Below, piece after piece: positions 1 through 15,267 of a stretch of 20,211 nucleotides of DNA. This DNA is from a virus. The DNA is taken from positions 1 to 20,211 of IMG/VR virus record IMGVR_UViG_3300006803_000127. The stretch is one strand, 5' to 3'. How positions within the stretch are numbered: the first letter of the stretch is position 1; the number at the start of each line of letters is the position of its first letter. Made by a program: the position numbers and the translations under genes. The notes under the pieces are model-generated. The model was not told the DNA's origin. It saw nothing but the letters and a program-made list of their open reading frames with translations, and did no database searches.

Positions 1-1694
1 CCTTCGTTTACCCAAGGATTTACTTCACGGACGGAGATGTTGGAAACAGTACCATTAAAGCTATCTGAATACACAAAGAGTTCCGCTACACCTATTATCC
101 AAGTGTTCGCCATAAAAATATAAGAATAAGTACCTACTCCATTTTCAAATACCAGACCTGTGCCGTCAAAAGGCAAGGTGACACTTCCCGAAGATACGCT
201 GTCAATAGTAATTTCTGCTTTGTAGAACTTGTTGTTTTCTAGGGGATCAGACGCATCAAAACCCATAAACCCTACCGTACCGTCTGATGTATATGTACCG
301 TCTCCGTTGTCCGTCCAGCCTCCATCATTTCTCTCTAACGGCCCAGCCCACAACTCAAACCCAAGCGGGTTAACTTGTGCGCCTTGCTCAATGTCGTAGA
401 GGTGGTGGCCTACGCGCGGTTCGTTGATAGCAGCAGTTTGCAAAATACCACTGGCATCAGTGTAAGTGGCTGTAGATGCACGGGCGTGAGTAGTAGCACT
501 CACAAGGTCCGTAGCTGTGCCGCCAGTGAAGTAACTACCCTCATCGAAAACTAGAGTTAGATCAGGGTAGAAGCCATTTTCTACATAAAAGATCAATGGG
601 TTGTTTGTTAGTATCGCCCGTGCCGAAGTTCCAGCTAGGAGACGTTCTGTTGTGTCGTACCACCCAGTAGGTAGAGGCGTAAGGGAAGCGGGCCATAAGA
701 TTTCAGAATTTAATGGTGTTATAACTCCATTAATGAGAGATGTCGCCGCGAGAGCATCAGTAAGCGCTGTCTCAACAGTTACCACATTCGCAGCCGTAGA
801 TACTACGTCAGCACCCGTCTGCACACGGTCAGCGGCTGTATTAACCGTATCAGCTTCCGTGAGAAGTAGATCAGCTGCCACTGCGGCTTTGTCGATAGCC
901 ACCTGTGCTGCGTCAGCAGACGTTGCGATCTGGTCTAAGTTGGTCTGCACAAGGTCCGCCGCCGTAGCGGCTGCATCTGCTGCTGTGGCAAGCGTATCAA
1001 GATTGGTTTGCACAAGGTCCGCTGCAACCTGTGCTGCATCTGCCGCGACTTGCGTTTGATCTGCATCTGTTTGCACAAGGTCCGCTGCAACTTGCGCCGC
1101 ATCCCCTGATGCTGCAAGCTGATCAATGTTTGTCTGCACAAGATCAGCCGCAACCTGTATGCGGTCAGCCGCGACTTGTGCCGTGTCGATCACAACTTGG
1201 GCCGCTGCTGCATTTGTCGCATTGATGTCTGGAACAGTTGGGCCATTTCCCCATCCGCTTGCCGTTCCGATCACAACCGCGTCCACAACAGGATCATCAA
1301 TCACAAGATCACGATTTATAGAACTGACCGGAAGCTTTGGCGATCTGCCGCTGCCTTCTGTCTTTTCTTGGAAGATTGCATAAACGCGATCCAACTCGAC
1401 ACTTAAACCACTTTTATCAATCGGGTCTTGCGTCGTGCGCCATTCATTTGTGCTTGAAACAACCGAAACTGTAACATTCGAAACAGCCACATCAAGCGTC
1501 AGGTTGTTTCCTGTCGTTCCGTAAAGATCAGATTGCAAGATTGTGTAAGCCGTTGTCTCAACATCATCGATCAGGACAATCACATCATCCTCATCCTGAA
1601 ATGGAAACGGAATATCAAAGGGACCATCGTCAGGCGTTACGCCAACCGCATAGTTTGCGACCCGTGGAAATTCTGCGTCGTTAATAATAGTCAT
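1..1694 (-). CDS. Tail fibre protein (partial, C-terminus beyond the window)
   Basis: The reading frame is open from an ATG at 1694 to the window's left edge, giving about 564 residues without a stop. The start follows AAGGTGG with about 8 nt spacing. The N-terminal 150 residues carry a motif ending DGPFDIPFPF and then beta-rich sequence, as in the T7 gp17-type N-terminal region that attaches the fibre to the tail. Residues 182-307 are six 21-residue Ala/Asp-rich repeats (AADLVQT...), probably an alpha-helical coiled-coil shaft. After them comes RASTATYTDASGILQTA, a module I recognise from many phage fibre and receptor proteins. Then follows a beta-sandwich-like stretch (GWTDNGDGTYTSDG ... 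VSNISVREV) resembling carbohydrate-binding domains. Likely role: trimeric host-surface receptor binding. It is the last visible gene of the late operon, 67 nt downstream of the gp16-like gene. The receptor and full length cannot be judged. Confidence 0.88.
   Translation of the reverse strand, partial: MTIINDAEFPRVANYAVGVTPDDGPFDIPFPFQDEDDVIVLIDDVETTAYTILQSDLYGTTGNNLTLDVAVSNVTVSVVSSTNEWRTTQDPIDKSGLSVELDRVYAIFQEKTEGSGRSPKLPVSSINRDLVIDDPVVDAVVIGTASGWGNGPTVPDINATNAAAAQVVIDTAQVAADRIQVAADLVQTNIDQLAASGDAAQVAADLVQTDADQTQVAADAAQVAADLVQTNLDTLATAADAAATAADLVQTNLDQIATSADAAQVAIDKAAVAADLLLTEADTVNTAADRVQTGADVVSTAANVVTVETALTDALAATSLINGVITPLNSEILWPASLTPLPTGWYDTTERLLAGTSARAILTNNPLIFYVENGFYPDLTLVFDEGSYFTGGTATDLVSATTHARASTATYTDASGILQTAAINEPRVGHHLYDIEQGAQVNPLGFELWAGPLERNDGGWTDNGDGTYTSDGTVGFMGFDASDPLENNKFYKAEITIDSVSSGSVTLPFDGTGLVFENGVGTYSYIFMANTWIIGVAELFVYSDSFNGTVSNISVREVNPWVNE
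774..1151 (-). repeat. Six tandem 63-bp units (21-residue repeats) in the tail fibre gene
   Basis: Four copies of TGCACAAG (plus strand) start at 946, 1009, 1072 and 1135, exactly 63 bp apart, and a diverged fifth (TGCACACG) lies at 820, a further 126 bp away. In translation this gives six 21-residue units (three heptads each) at fibre residues 182-307. The consensus is AADLVQTNxD, five variable residues, then ADAAQV. Units 1-4 are close copies; units 5 and 6, further downstream in the fibre, are more diverged. Similar repeats flank the array upstream (QVAADRIQV). The exact period suggests expansion by duplication, and the heptad pattern suggests a trimeric coiled-coil shaft. Confidence 0.9.
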
Positions 1695-1761
1695 GTCCGT
1701 TCCACCTTTTTAGTTTCCAACTGGCAGATTGGATGCTGCCCGAATGCTATGCTTTTCATTT

Positions 1762-4700
1762 TCACCGGTCTACCCCAGCCATGTTTCTCTCTAAACCGTC
1801 TACCAGCTTATCCATCGTGTCTCTCAACAAAATATGCCCACCAATGACAGGCATTGCCCAGCGCGCTTGGTTTGCGCCAGCCGGATTGCCTTGAAGTAAA
1901 TTGGCTGAACCCTTCACCGCGTTGGCAACAACTTGTGGACCAGCGCCAGCAAAGTCGAGCAATGCGTCTGTTCCGCTTGGCATATAGCCGTGCTTGGGAT
2001 CGAAGGGGAATGGATTTGAACCCGTCAAACCTATCGCACCTGTCTGGAACTTGTCACCATACATCGGCAACACGCCCATGATCCCAGATTGATCAATGGC
2101 CCGCCACAAGCGTTCGTCCATACCCTTTTCCGACCATTTCTCATCACCGGATCGCATGGCTGCGTTCATATACGCCAGACCAACAATAGAGGCGATGCCA
2201 GAGGCAACCTTCATCGAAGGCTCATCCATGCCAGCAATCATGATCTTGTTTGTAGCTGCCAGTGCGTAATTCCAGAATGAGAACGGCAAAGACAAAAGAC
2301 CAGAGTGAACCCGCCAGAAGTCGCCAGCATCCTCAAGGTCAGCCTTTTTGGCGTATTTATCCACCAGTGCATTCTTTCGAATGAACATCGTGCCATCCAC
2401 AATGATTGGCTTGTCTGCTGCACTTGCCAAGAGGATCGTGTTTTCGTTTGCCTGACCAATGGCTGCGCGAAACTTTGTCACCAGCTCCTCATCGCCCCAG
2501 GCTTGTGTGTTCGCCTGCCAATGTCCGCCTTCGACCTGTTCAATCGGTTCACGCGCCATGCGCTTTGCATCTGCTTCACTAATTCCAAAACGTGCAAGCT
2601 TTGCCATTTTGTCCGAGCGGAGAGTCCCCCCCCCTACCTCGTCAATCGCTTCTACAAAATCATGAACCTGAATAGCTGCATCGATCTCTTTCAACCTTGC
2701 TGTGAAAGGTGACAGACCGGACCATACAAACATTTTGCTGCCCATTGTCCGCATTGTCCGTTCAAAAGGCGTAATGTGAATTGGATCAAGACCCGTTTCT
2801 GCAAATGCCGCAAGTGCCGTGCCTTCCTGAACGTCCATCATGCCGCCCGCCAGTTTCAACTCGTCGGCGTTATTTCGGAAAGCCTGCTTTGTAACTTCAT
2901 CCATTTGACCAAAGGCTGTGCGAAACGTCCGCTTTAGCCCGTGCCGCATGACCAACATGCCAGTTTCTTGAACCGCATTCAGACCGGAAGACCCAAGGAA
3001 TGTTGCCATCGCCCAATTCTTCATGATCCCTGCTGCGCGGTTGTCGCCCCGTTCTGGGTTGCGAGCCACGCGGTTCAATACGCGATCAGCAGAAAACTTG
3101 ATGTCCCTTTCCATTTTGTTCCAGTGACGGTCAAAGTCGAGGTCTTCCTTGTCGCGCATTTTAACAAAGGCATCATTCAGCCTGTCAATTTCTGAACTGT
3201 TTAGATTGATCTGTGGCGCATCATCACCAAGATCATCTTTCAGGTGCTTGTTTGCGAATTCGACAAACTCGCTCATCGTGTCGTTGCCGCCGCGACGTGA
3301 CCAGTACCCAAAGACCTTTGCGATGTATTCTTCTTCTGCTGGCATCATGCGGCCGGAAGCTTTCATTGCTTCCCAATCTTTGGCATATCTGCCTTTGATT
3401 TTGAGCAAGTCTTCGAACTTCTTTGCCGAACTCGCGATGCGCAAATAAGACAGACGCTTCATCAATCCGGCTTCTGACCAGATTGCATGAAATGCTTCGT
3501 GATAAACGGTATCGATCCCCGCTTCGGGATGGATATACATCGTGCGCTGAGATGCGTCGTAATACCCGTTCAACTTTTTACCTGTTTCGCCAGATACTTT
3601 GACGTTATTTGGATCATTCTTTGACATGCGGCGCACCGCCACATGCGGCAAGCCCATTTTATCCAACGCAGCGCGATACGCTGGATGCTCATCTGTAAAA
3701 TCTTGATCAACAGGACGTGCCAGACGCTTATCCCAAGCTATGCGTTCAGCTTGCTTGGTCCGCATTAAAGCTTCCGCGAACCCATCCCGCGATGAAACGC
3801 CATCCACCGGACGCGCAAATGTGCGCGCCATTTCAATCGCTGGACCCATGCGCTCTGAGTAGACTTTCTGGACCATTGCGTAATCTGTTTCGATGAAGTC
3901 CGCGATGCCATTGCCGTTTGGTCCTTCTGCAAGAAGATGAGAGTTTGGTATGTCGAACTGACGGGTTCTGCCAAACGCAGGACGGTTTGGCTCACGCATC
4001 ATCATCAGCTCGTCTGGCTCTGCCTCGTCAAGGATTTTGGCAATCATTTCATCCGCGCGCTTGTCTACAGATTTTGCATCCGTTGCGGCTTTTACCCGCT
4101 CCCATTGGCTGCGATCTGGCGCTGCGTCCCTGCGCTTGCGCAACTCATCGATGCGGTACTTCGGCGCGTTCAGACTGCGAAGGCGAACAATCTCCTCTGT
4201 GATTTCATCCTTGCCCGGTTTCCAAACATCCATCCAAGGCTGCTGGCGCATCCAAGGCTTAACCACATTCTCTTTGAAGGCTTGGCGATGCTGCTTGATC
4301 CGGCTTTGCAGAAAGACCCGCGTGAAGTAATCCTCTTTTGGCTCATCTTCGGCGCGTGAAATGGCCTTTTTGATTTCTTCCATTTCCGCAACTGCATCAT
4401 CACTTTTGGCAATGCCCTCACGCAGATTGCGCAGACGTTGCTTGAGCAATTTAGCGTTGCCGATTACGCCGACCTCGCGGGCCACCATCAGATATTCTTC
4501 ATTCGCATTGCGCAAATGCTGCACCATCTGGTCCATTTCTGGAACGCCAGTCTTTTTGCCAGTGATCAGCGACTTGGAAACAATGTTGCGCCACTCTTGC
4601 GGCGTGACTGCTGCGCTTCCGTCTTTGCGCTTGCTGTTCTTGCGGGCAACCATGTTGCGCAAGTCCACGTCGCCAATGACCTTTACATCGTCATAGCCAA

Positions 4701-7056
4701 GATATTTGTTGTAAAGTTCCCGCTCGTGATCAAGCACCTGCCGTGTCACGCCATTCCAGCGCCGCCTGCGTGCGTAAACGCTTGGACCTAATGTGAGGCC
4801 CCGCGCATCAGTAGCGCGCGCGTAGGCCCCGTCAGCGATAAGCAGATCGATCAAGTCCCGCGCTTCCCCTGACAAAGCATTTCTGTGAATGCGCTTGTAG
4901 GGGCTGTCAGTCATGCGGGCGATGAATTCCAGCTTTTTGCTCTGCAAGATTTTGTTGTTTTCAATGCGCCACTTCTCAAGACCCTCTTGAGCCTTTAGGC
5001 CAGCCACTTCCTTTGCCCGCGCAATCTGGTTTTTGTACGATTGCGGCAGAACATCATCCAGCCTGTACCCCATACCAGAAAGCTTCGCGCGCAAGAGGTT
5101 TTCAAACTCCTCGCCATCACGCGCCTTGCCAGCAATTTCGTTTGAAGCCCTGACAATTTCCTCAAGGTCTTCTGCGCTTCTTATCTTCTTGGCGTCGATA
5201 GGAATGCTGTCAAAACGACCAAAGTTTGCGTTGCCCTTTTGCGGCCCAGCAAGAACAGTTTCACCCTCGTTCATTGCCTTTGTGGCTGCATCCGCATTGA
5301 ACGCGAAGTCGTCGCCTTTATTGGCGAGAAGGTTTTCACCCTGTACGTTTTTATTGATCTTCTTGGAAAGTGCGTCGAACTCTGCTGCCTGTTGGATTTT
5401 GAATTCACGGAATGCCGTGACGTTCTCAAACGTATCATCACCAGCTTTTGTCAGCGCTTTGTAACCTCTGATCATCGCTTCTTCGTTCACAATGACTTCG
5501 CCACCGACAACGCGCACCATCGGCGCTTCCGCCGCCGCAGCTCGTCCTGTTGGCACAGCTTCTCCTTGTGCCAAAATGCGCCCACCACTCGGATCAGCTT
5601 TGACCGTGTATGACCGTCCGCCTGCGCTTAAATTGGTTGAACCCACCGTGCCGCGTGCAATGTTTACTTCTCCGGCAAGAGTATCAAGTTGACGTGTAAT
5701 GCCACGGGCTTCAACACCAGCAATGCCGCCACCAATAAACCCTCCAAGAAGTGTCGCCATGCCGACCCGCACAAGACCTTCCTCGAAGGTCGCAGACGGG
5801 CTGACGTTGTGCCGCGCAAGTTCTGCACCGACCTCGAAAGCACCAGACGCAGCGCCAGCTTTTGTCATGCCGCGCACAAATGCGCTTCCCCCGCTTCTCA
5901 ATGCGGAATAGCCAATGCCCGCCGGAACGCCCATGCTTAGAATTGTGTCTGGCGAGATCATTGCGCCCGCAAAGTCGGCCATCCAATTTTCATTGATGCC
6001 CATTCTTTGACGCCGCTGCGCATCTTTTGTGTAGACGTTTTCAAGATACTTGAAGTGATCTTCGTTTTTCGCAGCCGCGAACCAAGATAAATCCTTGCCG
6101 CCGTACCCCCCCACCATTGCCCGATCAACGCCGGAAAATCCTTGCTCTCGTTCAAATGCTGCTGCTGCAAAAGACATTCCGACATATCGCGGGATGTTGG
6201 CGTTATCCATCACGCCATCAGTAAAAGCTTGCGCAGCCCCGCCGTGAATGATTGGCGCAGAACCAGACCCGCGCGTTATCCCATATCGGGATACCGGATC
6301 GATTTCCGCAGGTTCCGAAGCTCCACTAAGGTAATCTTTGCCAGTTCCCATCCATGCGTCGGTGCGCGCTTTGATGTCATAATCAGGATCAGACCAAGAT
6401 ACGGAAATGCCGCGATGCACATTGCTGTGGTTATTTGCGTCAATCCTCGCGCTTGTTGTCGGCACAAACTCATTCACACCGATATAGTCGGAAAACACTG
6501 GCACAAAGTCAGCATCCGCCATTGCCTGCTCGACCATCATTGGATTGACTTTGGACCGACTTGGGTTTGTCGAGACGCCTCCGTAATAGGCTGAACCTCG
6601 CCATACGGGACTACCCTGCCCGTTATATCCAGATTGCAGAACAGGCATCGAAGCCCATTCCTTCGCAATGTTTGTTCCGAATTCAGCCGCACTGATCCGT
6701 CCAGCTTGGTAATCAGACAGCCCGCGCCTTTCGAGCAATGTCATTGCGATCTGGTCTTGCCCAGCACCATCAAACATCATGTTCGGATCTACTTTGCCGC
6801 TCCGCACAAGCCCGTTCAGCGTTTTGTAGACAATTTGCACCGCCCCCGCCGCTGTAAACTGCTGCGCTCTTGGAAGGCTAAAGTTTTGACGCTGCTGATC
6901 CAGCACTTGCTGCACCGTCATTTGCGTGAGCGGCGTGTTTCCGCGATAGGCGGTTTTCAAATTCCAAGTGTCATAGGCGCGCGGATCGATGCGCCCATCT
7001 TGACCCATCCCGAACGAAGTCTCTGCGTTGTAAATAATGCTGAGAAGGTTATCCAT
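1762..7056 (-). CDS. Giant internal virion/ejection protein (T7 gp16-like) with lysozyme and zinc-peptidase signatures
   Basis: This 1764-residue protein follows the gp15-like gene with a TAATG stop/start overlap; AAAGGG lies about 10 nt upstream of the ATG. Residues 1-140 match the lambda R endolysin/GH104 pattern: NAET with a probable catalytic Glu12, AAGAVQIVYKTL (69-80), AGQDQIAMTLLERRG (98-112) and EWASMP (133-138). Residues about 365-455 are Gly/Ala-rich and hydrophobic (LLGGFIGGGIAGV), a candidate membrane-inserting segment. The middle (about 700-1080) is charged and helical. HEAFH at 1186-1190, followed by Glu1241-1243 about 50 residues later, is a zincin metallopeptidase signature. 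A second hydrophobic stretch lies near 1605-1635. By position and size it is the gp16-type ejectosome component, probably packaged in the head and injected to degrade peptidoglycan and form a DNA channel. A G9 tract encodes Gly1475-1477. Ejection role likely; peptidase activity inferred from the motif only. Confidence 0.85.
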   Translation of the reverse strand: MDNLLSIIYNAETSFGMGQDGRIDPRAYDTWNLKTAYRGNTPLTQMTVQQVLDQQRQNFSLPRAQQFTAAGAVQIVYKTLNGLVRSGKVDPNMMFDGAGQDQIAMTLLERRGLSDYQAGRISAAEFGTNIAKEWASMPVLQSGYNGQGSPVWRGSAYYGGVSTNPSRSKVNPMMVEQAMADADFVPVFSDYIGVNEFVPTTSARIDANNHSNVHRGISVSWSDPDYDIKARTDAWMGTGKDYLSGASEPAEIDPVSRYGITRGSGSAPIIHGGAAQAFTDGVMDNANIPRYVGMSFAAAAFEREQGFSGVDRAMVGGYGGKDLSWFAAAKNEDHFKYLENVYTKDAQRRQRMGINENWMADFAGAMISPDTILSMGVPAGIGYSALRSGGSAFVRGMTKAGAASGAFEVGAELARHNVSPSATFEEGLVRVGMATLLGGFIGGGIAGVEARGITRQLDTLAGEVNIARGTVGSTNLSAGGRSYTVKADPSGGRILAQGEAVPTGRAAAAEAPMVRVVGGEVIVNEEAMIRGYKALTKAGDDTFENVTAFREFKIQQAAEFDALSKKINKNVQGENLLANKGDDFAFNADAATKAMNEGETVLAGPQKGNANFGRFDSIPIDAKKIRSAEDLEEIVRASNEIAGKARDGEEFENLLRAKLSGMGYRLDDVLPQSYKNQIARAKEVAGLKAQEGLEKWRIENNKILQSKKLEFIARMTDSPYKRIHRNALSGEARDLIDLLIADGAYARATDARGLTLGPSVYARRRRWNGVTRQVLDHERELYNKYLGYDDVKVIGDVDLRNMVARKNSKRKDGSAAVTPQEWRNIVSKSLITGKKTGVPEMDQMVQHLRNANEEYLMVAREVGVIGNAKLLKQRLRNLREGIAKSDDAVAEMEEIKKAISRAEDEPKEDYFTRVFLQSRIKQHRQAFKENVVKPWMRQQPWMDVWKPGKDEITEEIVRLRSLNAPKYRIDELRKRRDAAPDRSQWERVKAATDAKSVDKRADEMIAKILDEAEPDELMMMREPNRPAFGRTRQFDIPNSHLLAEGPNGNGIADFIETDYAMVQKVYSERMGPAIEMARTFARPVDGVSSRDGFAEALMRTKQAERIAWDKRLARPVDQDFTDEHPAYRAALDKMGLPHVAVRRMSKNDPNNVKVSGETGKKLNGYYDASQRTMYIHPEAGIDTVYHEAFHAIWSEAGLMKRLSYLRIASSAKKFEDLLKIKGRYAKDWEAMKASGRMMPAEEEYIAKVFGYWSRRGGNDTMSEFVEFANKHLKDDLGDDAPQINLNSSEIDRLNDAFVKMRDKEDLDFDRHWNKMERDIKFSADRVLNRVARNPERGDNRAAGIMKNWAMATFLGSSGLNAVQETGMLVMRHGLKRTFRTAFGQMDEVTKQAFRNNADELKLAGGMMDVQEGTALAAFAETGLDPIHITPFERTMRTMGSKMFVWSGLSPFTARLKEIDAAIQVHDFVEAIDEVGGGTLRSDKMAKLARFGISEADAKRMAREPIEQVEGGHWQANTQAWGDEELVTKFRAAIGQANENTILLASAADKPIIVDGTMFIRKNALVDKYAKKADLEDAGDFWRVHSGLLSLPFSFWNYALAATNKIMIAGMDEPSMKVASGIASIVGLAYMNAAMRSGDEKWSEKGMDERLWRAIDQSGIMGVLPMYGDKFQTGAIGLTGSNPFPFDPKHGYMPSGTDALLDFAGAGPQVVANAVKGSANLLQGNPAGANQARWAMPVIGGHILLRDTMDKLVDGLERNMAGVDR

Positions 7057-9419
7057 TAGTAGCCGGCCCTTTCTCGCTGATAATCATATGCCGAAAGCGA
7101 TCCATTCGGGTCCAGACCAAACTGCTTTATTAATTCATGGAAGTCTTCAATTGAAGCTGGCGGGTTCGCAGAAACACTCTCCCTCAACCTTGCCATGTTC
7201 TCATGGTAGGATGCGAAATTGGCTTCCATTTCATCCATTGCGGGGCGTAAATCCAAACGCCAGCCACCAGTGACTTCCGTCATTCTGTTGGTTGTTCCAT
7301 CAATCATAAACACCCTGTAAACAGGGTTGTCTCTCGTTCCAGAACTATCCGGCACTAATTTGTAATGCTCACCAGCACGAAGCGGGCTGCTGCGCGATCC
7401 TTCGCCTTCGCGGTAGCCCATTGCCTCCCACATTTCCTCATATGTTTCAGCATCCACGTTTGCCAGAAGTTCATCGCGGATCAGTTTATCAGCTGCAAAT
7501 TCCCAAGGTTCAGCCTGTAGCAAATCTGCGCCCCAATCTGTTTCCCGATCCTCAAAACCAAGACTAAGAACCTCTGAATAAAGGGTTCGGAAACCTTCAG
7601 CTGCGCCAACGACTTCACCGCCAATTTGGCGTCCGAACCACTCCAGGCTTTCCATCGCAGATTTTGACTGTGGTGCGCCGTACCGCGTATCAGGATCGAA
7701 TGCCGAACGGGCAACGCCAAGCATTACGTCAGTTTCAGCCCAGCGCCCCTCAAGTGATTGATTGATCATGCTGATCACGTCTTCTTCGCTTTCACCCAAG
7801 CGCAGAAAAGTCTCATAAAGCATTTGCGCTTCTTTGATTTCTTGAGGCGCAGGATCAACGCCATCAAACGCATTGCCTCCCTGACTTAGAACTTCCATAA
7901 CGCGCGCTTCCATTGCTTTGCGTGCGTTTTCCGGCTGAACTCTTTCTCCGTTGAACAACCAGTTGTCGGCCGTATCCGCCCTTGTCAGTGCTTGGGCTAA
8001 AGCGAGATCAGTCCATTCCTGACCTGCCAACGAACTAATAAGGGTAGCCGCTTCCTCAAGGGGCGTATCGCCCGCGCTGCCGTTGTCCACCAAAGCAGAC
8101 GCCAGCGTGAACAATCGCTTTGTGTTTTCGCCAAGATTAACCGTCATGTCACGCACGTCGCCCGCGCGATTGGGCGCCAAACGTAAAGCCATCCATGTAT
8201 CATAAGCGCCATTCAGTGATGTCTCGTCGCTAATCGCGCCATGTTCAATTTGCTTGAATAATTCGTGCAACGATGTTGGGAAAATGCCCGCTGATTTTAC
8301 AGTTTGTATTGAATGCGCCAAATCCTCTGGCGACATTGTTGTCCAGTCGGTGTAATTCATTGCCCGACGCATACCCGTTTCAGGGTCGACCAAACCAATC
8401 TGATCCGCCACAACCATATCTCCGATATTTCTCGAAGTTTGGTTGTCGTCTGCGCGTCCAGTCGCATATTTCTTCATGTGGTTAAACGTGCTTTCAGCAC
8501 TCGTTCTGCCGTTTGCAGTGGCATAGAAAGCATTCAGCTTTGACGCCGCCTGCCGCAACATTTGCTCGGTCGGAACCTGATCGTTTGGCATGGTAAAGTA
8601 TTCCATGACGTCTGGATTATTCGTGTTCAAATCCGCAATGAGAACCGCAAGCTGGCCTTGGTTCATGGCTGCTACGTTTTGGTCCATGATCAAACGCTGC
8701 GTTCCTGTTGAAACAACAAGATCACTGATCATTGCATTCTTCTGTCCGTCACTCAGAATATGGCGCGGATAAGCGTTAATGTGCGCCACCTGATCACCAA
8801 GCACGGCGCTTGCAGCTTCCATTTCACCGGACTGAATAAGCTGTATCAATTGCTGCGAAACATTGTCATTTTGACCCAGCGCAGTTTCGCTTTGCTGCTG
8901 ATCCATCATCGCGCCTTGCGATCGCCCGATCTGCGCTCCCGCAGTGGTCTTCATGTCAGCCACGATGTCTTGGAACAAACCGCTGTACTGATCAGGAACC
9001 GATCCCTGCATTCCATCAAGACGCCCGTTTACCGCCGCTTGAAACTGCTCCAAATCATATGGAAATTCATTCTTCGCCGCTTCAACATGCGCCTTTACAG
9101 ACACCGCAAGGCGATCCGCGTACCGCGCTTCTACGTTGTCGGTATAAACCCGCTGCGCAATCCGGCCCCACGTCTTTGTGGGATCATCAGGCATTTGAGG
9201 TGTGCCGTTCTGGTCTTGAGAAAAGACAGCACTTCGCGCCAAGCCGATTGCTTTGTCTTCTGCCTCTTGGCCCATCAGGCGACCATATTTAGCCGCCTCC
9301 TCCGCCATCAGGTCAGACATTGCCCATACGTTGTTCAGCGCGACATTCTGCCGGCTCTTGATAACACCTGTCGGGCCTTGCTGAACTTGTACGCTTTCAC
9401 GCTTTCTTAGAACTGGCAT
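7056..9419 (-). CDS. Internal virion/ejection protein (T7 gp15-like)
   Basis: A 787-residue soluble protein, largely alpha-helical by composition (many Ala, Gln, Glu and Leu; long runs without Cys or Pro), with no signal peptide and no clear membrane segment. The ATG at 9419 follows AAAGGATAACGG, whose AAGGA overlaps the end of the gp14-like gene six bases away. The stop overlaps the start of the gp16-like gene by one base, so the two are probably translationally coupled. The identification rests on order (tubular B, small ejection protein, about 790 residues, then a giant protein), which matches T7 genes 12, 14, 15 and 16, and on length close to T7 gp15 (747). I see no catalytic motif. Likely role: the periplasmic tube part of the ejectosome that carries DNA across the envelope. 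Confidence 0.72.
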   Translation of the reverse strand: MPVLRKRESVQVQQGPTGVIKSRQNVALNNVWAMSDLMAEEAAKYGRLMGQEAEDKAIGLARSAVFSQDQNGTPQMPDDPTKTWGRIAQRVYTDNVEARYADRLAVSVKAHVEAAKNEFPYDLEQFQAAVNGRLDGMQGSVPDQYSGLFQDIVADMKTTAGAQIGRSQGAMMDQQQSETALGQNDNVSQQLIQLIQSGEMEAASAVLGDQVAHINAYPRHILSDGQKNAMISDLVVSTGTQRLIMDQNVAAMNQGQLAVLIADLNTNNPDVMEYFTMPNDQVPTEQMLRQAASKLNAFYATANGRTSAESTFNHMKKYATGRADDNQTSRNIGDMVVADQIGLVDPETGMRRAMNYTDWTTMSPEDLAHSIQTVKSAGIFPTSLHELFKQIEHGAISDETSLNGAYDTWMALRLAPNRAGDVRDMTVNLGENTKRLFTLASALVDNGSAGDTPLEEAATLISSLAGQEWTDLALAQALTRADTADNWLFNGERVQPENARKAMEARVMEVLSQGGNAFDGVDPAPQEIKEAQMLYETFLRLGESEEDVISMINQSLEGRWAETDVMLGVARSAFDPDTRYGAPQSKSAMESLEWFGRQIGGEVVGAAEGFRTLYSEVLSLGFEDRETDWGADLLQAEPWEFAADKLIRDELLANVDAETYEEMWEAMGYREGEGSRSSPLRAGEHYKLVPDSSGTRDNPVYRVFMIDGTTNRMTEVTGGWRLDLRPAMDEMEANFASYHENMARLRESVSANPPASIEDFHELIKQFGLDPNGSLSAYDYQRERAGY

Positions 9420-9425
9420 TTTCCG

Positions 9426-9959
9426 TTATCCTTTGTACCCGACGCTTCTCAAGAATGACCCGCCTCTGCTGAGAAAATCATCGCTGGTGGACCCATCTTT
9501 GTTGACGGTTCCGGTTTTGTATTCCTGATACGCACTTTCAGCCCCAGAAAGCGTTTTGAATGCCGCCATGTAACCCTTGAGCCTTGCAGCTTTGGCAGCG
9601 TGAACCCCAGCAACCTTTATCATCTTGCCTTCCTGCATCATCTGCATACTTTCCCAGCGCCCAGCCGACCGCAGCTTGCCAATGTTTTCATTAGCGTCTG
9701 CTTGGTTGCCTTCCTCAATGGACGCAAAGCTTAGATTTGAAGCCCCAGATACCGCCATCGCTGCCATGTTGGCCTCGGCTTGTTCTGCGTAAGACTTCAA
9801 AACCTGCGTTTCACCTTCGTTCGATCTGGCGGCAACCATGAAAGCCCCAAGTTGCAGCTGCGCCGCCTCGAAGTTGGCGTCCGCCTTAATACCGCGTGCC
9901 TCGATGTTGCCGCCCATAATTTGCAGACCTGCGTTTGCAGCTGAAAAAGCATCACACAT
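9426..9959 (-). CDS. Small internal virion/ejection protein (T7 gp14-like)
   Basis: A 177-residue protein beginning MCDAFSAANAGLQIMGG, with a hydrophobic, small-residue N-terminus followed by Ala/Gln/Glu-rich helices. T7 gp14 (196 residues) has the same build and also begins Met-Cys followed by an Ala/Ile/Gly-rich segment. The ATG at 9959 lies inside the end of the tubular B gene (8-nt overlap, ATGTGTGA). No strong SD is visible, so reinitiation by ribosomes finishing the upstream gene is likely. Next comes the gp15-like gene after 6 nt. Likely role: the head-stored protein that inserts in the outer membrane during DNA ejection. Assignment is from order, size and the N-terminus; sequence-level homology could not be tested. 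Confidence 0.7.
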   Translation of the reverse strand: MCDAFSAANAGLQIMGGNIEARGIKADANFEAAQLQLGAFMVAARSNEGETQVLKSYAEQAEANMAAMAVSGASNLSFASIEEGNQADANENIGKLRSAGRWESMQMMQEGKMIKVAGVHAAKAARLKGYMAAFKTLSGAESAYQEYKTGTVNKDGSTSDDFLSRGGSFLRSVGYKG

Positions 9960-13951: not shown

Positions 13952-14425
13952 TTAAGGCAGTGACGAAAACGTCACATAACCCTTAAACGGATCATTAACT
14001 TCCTTAGCTTTTATGTCAAACCCTAAGTAATGAAGCCAAGCGAGGCGCTTTGGCTGATTTGTCGGAACCACATTGAATAATGACCATCCATCTTCCGTCC
14101 AACCATTCTTCATTTTTCGGCAGTGACGGGTCATTGTGCGCCATTGGCTGTCTGCAAGATCAGTGCCAAGAAACCAAATAATCCCCGTTTTATTCTCCAA
14201 AGGAACCATGCCACCAATCCCGACGATGTGATCATCGATCCAGCTTGTCCAGAACTCACCATTGCCCGCAAAAGCTTCAAACATATCTTCCTTGAACGAC
14301 CAATTTGATATGCACTTGCCGTTGAGGCGCGCCAGCTCCGTTACCTCATCAACATCGCTTTGCCTGAGACATTCGCAAACCGTGCCAATGTCCCAGAGCG
14401 TTGACGGGAAAACCCCTGTCGTCAT
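13952..14425 (-). CDS. GNAT-fold protein, T7 gp13-like
   Basis: I place the start at 14425 (MTTGVFPSTLWD, 157 residues), where ATGA overlaps the scaffold stop; a longer in-frame start at 14455 has no advantage. Translation is probably coupled, as no good SD is visible. The core resembles T7 gp13: HIVGIGGMVPLENKTGIIWFLGTD (strand-turn-strand), a helix WRTMTRHCRKMKN, then LFNVVPTNQPKRLAWLHYLGFDIK, corresponding to the gp13 segment 'WNYVWVGNTSHIRFLKTIGA'. This is the acetyltransferase (GNAT) fold with the final Asn/His helix and LGF turn; the acetyl-CoA P-loop is weak. T7 gp13 is needed for correct ejection-protein incorporation, and a similar assembly role is inferred. Its place between scaffold and capsid is unlike T7, where it lies after gene 12. 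Confidence 0.68.
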   Translation of the reverse strand: MTTGVFPSTLWDIGTVCECLRQSDVDEVTELARLNGKCISNWSFKEDMFEAFAGNGEFWTSWIDDHIVGIGGMVPLENKTGIIWFLGTDLADSQWRTMTRHCRKMKNGWTEDGWSLFNVVPTNQPKRLAWLHYLGFDIKAKEVNDPFKGYVTFSSLP

Positions 14426-15267
14426 TGAGGATTGTTTTTCGCAAACTGCGCCCATTCGCCGCGCACCATTGCAGTGTAATCGGGATCGTCACCGAACCGC
14501 TTGTCAGCTTGCATTTCACGGATTTCGCCGCGTGTTTTCGGCGCGTTGCTTGGTGTTGGAACATCTCCAGGTGCAAAGTTGTTGTCACCCATTTTATCAC
14601 GGAAACGCTCCATGAACTCGACGCCTTTTGCCGTGGTCATGATTGCTTCGACAATCTGGTGATCATCCTTTGTGGTGTTGGCGTTGAGCCATCGGTTCAT
14701 TTCTCCAATGCGATCATCTGCGTTTTCGCCAAGTGCTTCTTTTTCTGCAATCGGATCAGGCATGTTTTCGTTGTAAAGATTGAGAAGATTTTCGTATCCC
14801 TCTTTGCCAACGGCATTTTCCTTGGCCCAATTCTTAATGCCAGCGTCCATTTCGTCTGTCATTTTGAAGTTGAGGTCTTCGGGACGCTCGTATCCCGCAA
14901 CGTCTTCTGGAACGCCGCGTTCTTCCATATATTTCTTCATGGCGTCTTGTGTCGCTTCGTCTTTGATTTCTGCGCGCAGATCGTCTGTCTTCTTCAAGAA
15001 CGACTTCGACATTTCGGAATAAGCTTTGGCCTGATCTTCTGGCGATTTGAACTTCTCCAAAAGCCAATCTGGGCGATCATTTTCACCGGCGGGCGGCGTC
15101 TGGTTCGAACCCTCATTTGAACCGTCGCCGCCATCGCCAGCTTTGAACATAGAGGGGGATTGTCCAGTTCCACCGCTATCTCCGTTGCCTGCATCATCTG
15201 GGACACCGCTCGCTGCACCTTCGTCTGCTGGCGCTCTTAGTATATGACCGTATTTCTTAATGAACAT
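14422..15267 (-). CDS. Scaffold (capsid assembly) protein
   Basis: A 281-residue, very acidic, Gly/Ser/Asp-rich protein just upstream of the gp13-like and capsid genes. Residues about 12-65 are low-complexity and disordered (GDSGGTGQ, GDGGDGSNEGSN). Then come helical segments (WLLEKFKSPEDQAKAYSEMSKS, DDLRAEIKDEATQDAMKKYMEERGV), and the C-terminus is RGEIREMQADKRFGDDPDY ... Such a disordered-acidic plus helical build with 'f.s.ed.akay.el.k' is typical of podovirus scaffolds (T7 gp9-like). AAAGGA precedes the ATG at about 10 nt. It would direct capsid polymerisation around the portal and leave before maturation. It ends in a 4-nt overlap with the next gene. Confidence 0.85.
   Translation of the reverse strand: MFIKKYGHILRAPADEGAASGVPDDAGNGDSGGTGQSPSMFKAGDGGDGSNEGSNQTPPAGENDRPDWLLEKFKSPEDQAKAYSEMSKSFLKKTDDLRAEIKDEATQDAMKKYMEERGVPEDVAGYERPEDLNFKMTDEMDAGIKNWAKENAVGKEGYENLLNLYNENMPDPIAEKEALGENADDRIGEMNRWLNANTTKDDHQIVEAIMTTAKGVEFMERFRDKMGDNNFAPGDVPTPSNAPKTRGEIREMQADKRFGDDPDYTAMVRGEWAQFAKNNPQ

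Follow-up and report, generated by a model that had tools for sequence, protein, structure and literature searches.

An exchangeable slot carrying a probable zincin metallopeptidase in a giant T7 gp16-like ejection protein

The window analysed here (the whole stretch of 20,211 bases, a virus record) encodes a 1764-aa protein related to the internal virion protein gp16 of T7, and this protein harbours a domain that, to judge from its homologues and its predicted fold, is a complete and probably active zincin of the type found in phage polyvalent proteins. The domain lies in a slot whose contents differ among close relatives and a second type of zincin is also found at other sites of the same protein family, so that the peptidase looks like an accessory and exchangeable cargo. 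The exchangeable slot is the new element, as metallopeptidase (MPTase) cargo in injected phage proteins has already been proposed (Iyer et al. 2017, PMC5512222) and ejection proteins are already known to exchange their lysozyme domain in a mosaic fashion (PMC8954989).

The giant protein and its gene neighbourhood

The features of this region are the following:
1762..7056, minus strand: 1764-aa T7 gp16-like internal virion (ejection) protein
6511..6975, minus strand: lysozyme/transglycosylase-like N-terminal part, residues 28-182
1765..3153, minus strand: conserved C-terminal core, residues 1302-1764
7056..9419, minus strand: 787-aa neighbour, gp15-like by position
9426..9959, minus strand: 177-aa neighbour, gp14-like internal virion protein

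The giant protein was assigned from its collinearity with proteins of phage relatives and from the match of its residues 316-1082 to PHROG 342 (internal virion protein with endolysin domain, E 4.4e-31). A lysozyme in the same protein had been proposed by a sequence-only reading of this DNA, and a lysozyme-like N-terminus is indeed present: residues 28-182 match in tblastn several Rhizobium phage proteins annotated as transglycosylase or lysozyme (Paso and others, E 2e-12), a Pfam search giving no match for them. The C-terminal core is shared with the nearest relatives (46-80% identity) and is also found in distant phages. The 177-aa neighbour matches PHROG 418 (E 0.0027); the 787-aa neighbour matches no family in Pfam or PHROGs and has a weak BLASTP similarity to the upstream protein of a Vibrio phage (E 0.007). 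The giant gene lies within an internal virion protein block, after genes for tail tubular A/B-like proteins and the gp14-like gene, and the major capsid protein and head-tail connector genes are also neighbours. The predicted genes mark the region as the block of structural genes of a T7-like podovirus. By analogy with the role of T7 gp16 homologues in injection (PMC8954989), the 1764-aa protein would be packaged into the head and enter the cell on ejection.

Elsewhere in the window, a 167-aa ORF located between the capsid and scaffold-like genes (13952-14455) has, by eye, the look of a GNAT fold; annotated acetyltransferases also occur near the tail tubular genes of ZP6 and ctHz.

A zincin domain around the HEAFH motif

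Three features define the putative peptidase:
3262..3684, minus strand: zincin metallopeptidase core, residues 1125-1265
3487..3501, minus strand: HEAFH, residues 1186-1190, presumed to provide two His ligands and the catalytic Glu
3328..3333, minus strand: E1242 and E1243, a conserved Glu pair of which one member probably serves as the third metal ligand

The sequence-only reading had noticed HEAFH within TVYHEAFHAIW together with an acidic cluster, EEE, and had proposed a zincin whose two His and catalytic Glu are completed by a Glu ligand further downstream. The motif is confirmed at residues 1186-1190. The cluster is also present (residues 1241-1243, 3328-3336, minus strand), but only E1242 and E1243 are conserved, E1241 being variable. 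The stretch to which the domain had been assigned (3352-3501) covers HEAFH and ends before EEE, whereas the zincin core extends over ~3262-3684 and the slot over ~3154-3732.

An HExxH motif by itself is weak evidence, and it is the surrounding domain that makes the motif significant. HExxH is absent from the 14 other ORFs of the window that were checked. A near-identical protein encoded by a separate contig (L002, 99.8%) keeps HEAFH. In an alignment of 58 domains (A9), of which every row was required to contain HExxH, H1186, E1187 and H1190 are accordingly invariant (n=58, rows chosen for the motif). E1242, E1243 and A1246 are conserved in all 57 rows that reach them, a count that is partly selected, as the Glu pair was part of the second of two patterns used for scanning, and that leaves out L104, a relative whose frame is lost after the HExxH helix.

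The domain as a whole was compared with an independent profile built from 14 peptidase domains of giant phage or prophage ORFs, no slot member being included. This profile matches residues 1125-1265 of the window protein with an E value of 8.3e-9 (30.1 bits) and the relative L007 with 9.4e-12, the best of 300 shuffled controls reaching 7.3 bits. As the 14 domains had been gathered in ways that favour the HExxH helix, the search was repeated with this helix masked: the window protein scored 16.5 bits (E 1.6e-4) and L007 27.1, the best shuffle 10.7, and another relative, L008, 11.0, which is no better than the best shuffle. When the parts of the domain before or after the HExxH helix were searched alone, neither was significant for the window.

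The AlphaFold2 model obtained with A9 (pLDDT 78.8, pTM 0.75; pLDDT mostly 67-93 in the N-terminal helix and the three-stranded sheet) contains no zinc or zinc geometry. It shows an N-terminal helix, three strands, the HExxH helix (residues 1181-1195) and a second conserved helix (residues 1239-1255), the Glu pair lying on model helix 126-142 in AF2 numbering. This helix order fits a zincin, and the same order of elements around the HExxH and Glu helices was described for polyvalent-protein MPTases (Iyer et al. 2017, PMC5512222). A model built from only four sequences (pLDDT 47) was excluded from the evidence.

More distant similarities are weak. A profile search of the PDB returned IrrE orthologues (E 0.006 and 0.013) among similarly scoring helical and designed proteins. 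Foldseek found no significant match in the PDB, the zincins abylysin, selecase, lethal factor and IrrE recurring among its non-significant matches; against viral models, its top matches were giant structural proteins, many of them unnamed (E ~0.003, probability near 1), followed at lower ranks by polyvalent and virion RNA polymerase proteins. Pfam, NCBIfam and PHROGs gave no match for the window domain, and the other A9 members have scattered weak Pfam matches, the best being Peptidase_M13 (4 members, E 3.5e-4). In tblastn against 50,697 phage records, the best match of the window domain was the virion RNA polymerase (vRNAP) of phiCB2047-B, at a very weak E of 0.4. The dN/dS ratio of the domain relative to L007 is 0.17, with dS near saturation, and by this estimate the domain is under purifying selection.

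A chance HExxH in a helical structural protein devoid of any zincin has in its favour that 1.9% of shuffles of the 1764-aa protein contain the motif. Such an origin is extremely improbable and, at the level of homology, is ruled out by the full-domain profile match, which persists when the motif is masked; the predicted fold and the conservation also speak against it. Taken together, profile, conservation and model give good support to the zincin reading as far as homology and predicted fold are concerned.

A slot with different contents in close relatives

The zincin core belongs to a larger variable segment:
3154..3732, minus strand: exchangeable slot 1, residues ~1109-1301 (borders approximate), contents varying among relatives with both flanks aligning

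Relatives were collected by scanning IMG/VR with alignments of the C-terminal core, which gave 66 and 23 loci, and with the region ahead of the slot, which gave near relatives, including two proviruses from the sequenced Rhodobacteraceae Poseidonocella sp. HB161398 and Mangrovicoccus algicola that carry a zincin-filled form. A search for the C-terminal core in 395 Rhodobacteraceae genomes returned just these two known proviruses. The contents of slot 1 are listed below, equated records being joined by an equals sign:
HEAFH zincin: window, L007
HEFIH zincin: L008 = L076 = L082 = L103; L083
HEAIH zincin with a broken frame: L104
unrelated HEIMH zincin: L079 = L080 = L099
kinase-like domain: L078 = L095; L094
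helical stretches: L075 = L097; L090
empty: L077 = L096, L089, L091-L093, L100, L101

The protein of Pelagibacter phage Hodr matches residues 804-1080 and 1266-1709 with no gap between them, and other phages are alike. The kinase-like domains (L078:6373-6810 and L094:2-400; motifs GEGVFKKVF ... DIHMGN ... IDG) are 84% alike, and that of L094 has a weak Pfam match to the ABC1 atypical kinases (E 0.008). In L104, the giant protein is split over frames (6389-7906 and 7818-9338) and one of the breaks lies inside the slot zincin, an arrangement compatible both with a sequencing error and with decay.

Outside the slot, the core of these proteins is 46-80% identical to that of the window over residues 1313-1710, and in a core tree that leaves the slots out the slot-variable members form one clade (support 100/99). 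The seven slot states, mapped on 24 labelled rows, require seven changes (minimum six), below all 200 shuffles; near-copies add to this clustering, and the tree leaves the direction and the number of gains unfixed. Four independent slot lineages of the window zincin type were counted, of which the window with L007, L008 with L083 and the frame-broken L104 make up three, or fewer by descent. With so few slot lineages found, the frequency at which the zincin moves is unsure. The GC content of the zincin core (0.50) and slot (0.48) is slightly below that of the flanks (0.52-0.54), which is not strong evidence for a recent arrival.

A second zincin type and a second slot

An additional insertion site has its empty equivalent in the window:
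2494..2499, minus strand: slot 2 equivalent, falling between residues 1520 and 1521 and empty here; HExxH-bearing insertions in L026, L028-L030, L048, L108 and L109

Domains 45-46% identical to the HEIMH domain in slot 1 of L079 are also present in L026, L028-L030 and L048, where they are inserted after the equivalent of residue 1520. The slot 2 insertions of L108 and L109 are larger (~370 aa, HELNH and HELHH), show a weak kinship with the HEIMH type and have no match in Pfam. A profile restricted to the HEIMH type also finds Hodr (E 3e-10) and L012 (5e-10) at residues ~260-375, with both His replaced. By sequence, this second zincin type is thus found at three sites of the protein family and lacks the metal ligands at one of them. 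These copies suggest that the fold need not mean catalysis.

His-less copies of the HEIMH type lie near the N-terminus of Hodr-like gp16 homologues (L003:3612-7355, residues ~250-370; L009-L019), and the HExxH matches of L052 and L054 are distant from both slots. Residues 561-680 of the giant protein (window ~5017-5376; segment listed under 1684-5352) are sparsely occupied in relatives and may be another variable site. A His-less second-type zincin at residues ~600-690 was considered and received no support from profile searches.

Kinship with the peptidases of polyvalent proteins

A resemblance of the domain to the zincin-like domains of phage polyvalent proteins, raised in the sequence-only reading, was borne out as sequence kinship with MPTases of giant multidomain ORFs. 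The zincin of L104 matches (E 1e-4) a 3912-aa protein of Ruegeria phage 45A6 that also contains LPD38, helicase, methylase and acetyltransferase domains. LPD38 occurs in six of the 14 records that hold zincin relatives (ORFs of 2158-3941 aa) and is absent from the gp16-like proteins of the records checked. In Rhodobacteraceae genomes, the domain is present in open frames of 2217-5351 aa. Some polyvalent-protein MPTases are fused to lysozyme, and kinase domains also occur in polyvalent proteins, according to Iyer et al. 2017 (PMC5512222). The gp16-like slot therefore appears to take its domains from the pool that also supplies polyvalent proteins.

Possible roles of the peptidase

The analysis shows the domain together with its conserved residues and its kinship, and shows that its presence is modular and dispensable. 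Presuming zinc binding, peptidase activity, injection and a host target, these findings combine into the following scheme. The giant protein would be packaged in the head and would leave it together with the DNA. Its lysozyme-like N-terminus would open the cell wall and its conserved core would contribute to the building of the DNA channel. The slot zincin would ride along into the cell as accessory cargo and might then act early in infection by cutting a host protein, which could be a defence protein. A host-directed protease carried as accessory slot cargo and delivered at entry is the best reading, which we hold to have an even chance of being correct, and self-processing is its main rival. 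That a kinase-like domain can take the place of the zincin is in keeping with accessory enzymes being delivered to the host. A broader proposal, for which the chances appear slightly below even, is that at least two cargo slots swap unrelated enzymes (two zincin types and a kinase-like domain) and that the injection machine also serves as a modular carrier of early effectors directed at the host.

Under self-processing, the substrate of the zincin would be the giant protein itself, cleaved either in the head or following entry, for example so as to separate the lysozyme half from the channel half. The location of the zincin between these two parts is consistent with it, and autoprocessing was proposed for other polyvalent proteins by Iyer et al. 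(PMC5512222). However, L077, L089 and L100 have both parts and an empty slot, indicating that such a cut is not generally required, and N4 vRNAP is packaged uncut despite having such a domain; autoprocessing is therefore rather unlikely. The idea that the domain generally serves to process the ejection proteins of the phage itself, also suggested by the sequence-only reading, is weakened in the same way: in near relatives the slot is empty or contains a kinase-like domain, and no domain of the window's peptidase type was found elsewhere in the partial records of relatives that lack it in the slot. As the empty-slot relatives keep the rest of the protein, a general function in virion maturation is unlikely. 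The zincin fold might instead be kept as a structural or binding module, for packing or protein contact, as the second-type copies of Hodr and its relatives, which have lost both His, would suggest. Yet no member of the window's own type that retains the domain has lost any of the H, E and H or the Glu pair (HExxH being required of members), and the emptiness of the slot in some relatives also disfavours such a module, which is an improbable explanation.

Comparison with known systems

The window domain shares with the polyvalent-protein MPTases its sequence family, its core order and a lysozyme-like fusion (PMC5512222), but it sits in the middle of the protein, in a T7 gp16-like slot of varying content, and is not accompanied by LPD38; the passages of that article covered here do not describe such an exchange of slot contents. 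With T7 gp16-like proteins, the window ORF shares the PHROG match, the lysozyme-like N-terminus and the gene order near gp14-like and tail tubular genes, and differs from T7 gp16 by its 1764 aa and its cargo slots. T7 gp16 is not known to carry a peptidase. A review of ejection proteins mentions none (PMC8954989), and a partial literature search pairing 'internal virion protein' with 'zincin' returned nothing. N4-like virion RNA polymerases also have a C-terminal HExxH domain in a giant ejected protein (PMC12633501 and PMC5512222), whereas Pfam and PHROGs detect no RNA polymerase domain, including the T7 type, in the window protein. The nearest solved zincins are IrrE/PprI by profile (the IrrE orthologues above) and abylysin and selecase by fold; the similarity is weak, and those are stand-alone or HTH-fused enzymes and not virion proteins.

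These proteins may help to decide whether the peptidases of injected virion proteins are directed at the phage itself or at the host. Nearly collinear proteins with an empty, kinase-filled or zincin-filled slot provide natural deletion and swap controls and, together with the two proviruses in sequenced genomes, make this question open to bench work. The peptidase family itself is widespread in phage contigs yet missed by Pfam and NCBIfam models: it comprises A9 and L110 (TLNHEAIHALR...EEAIAE), and PHROG 10691, which has no name, takes in 20 of the 58 A9 members.
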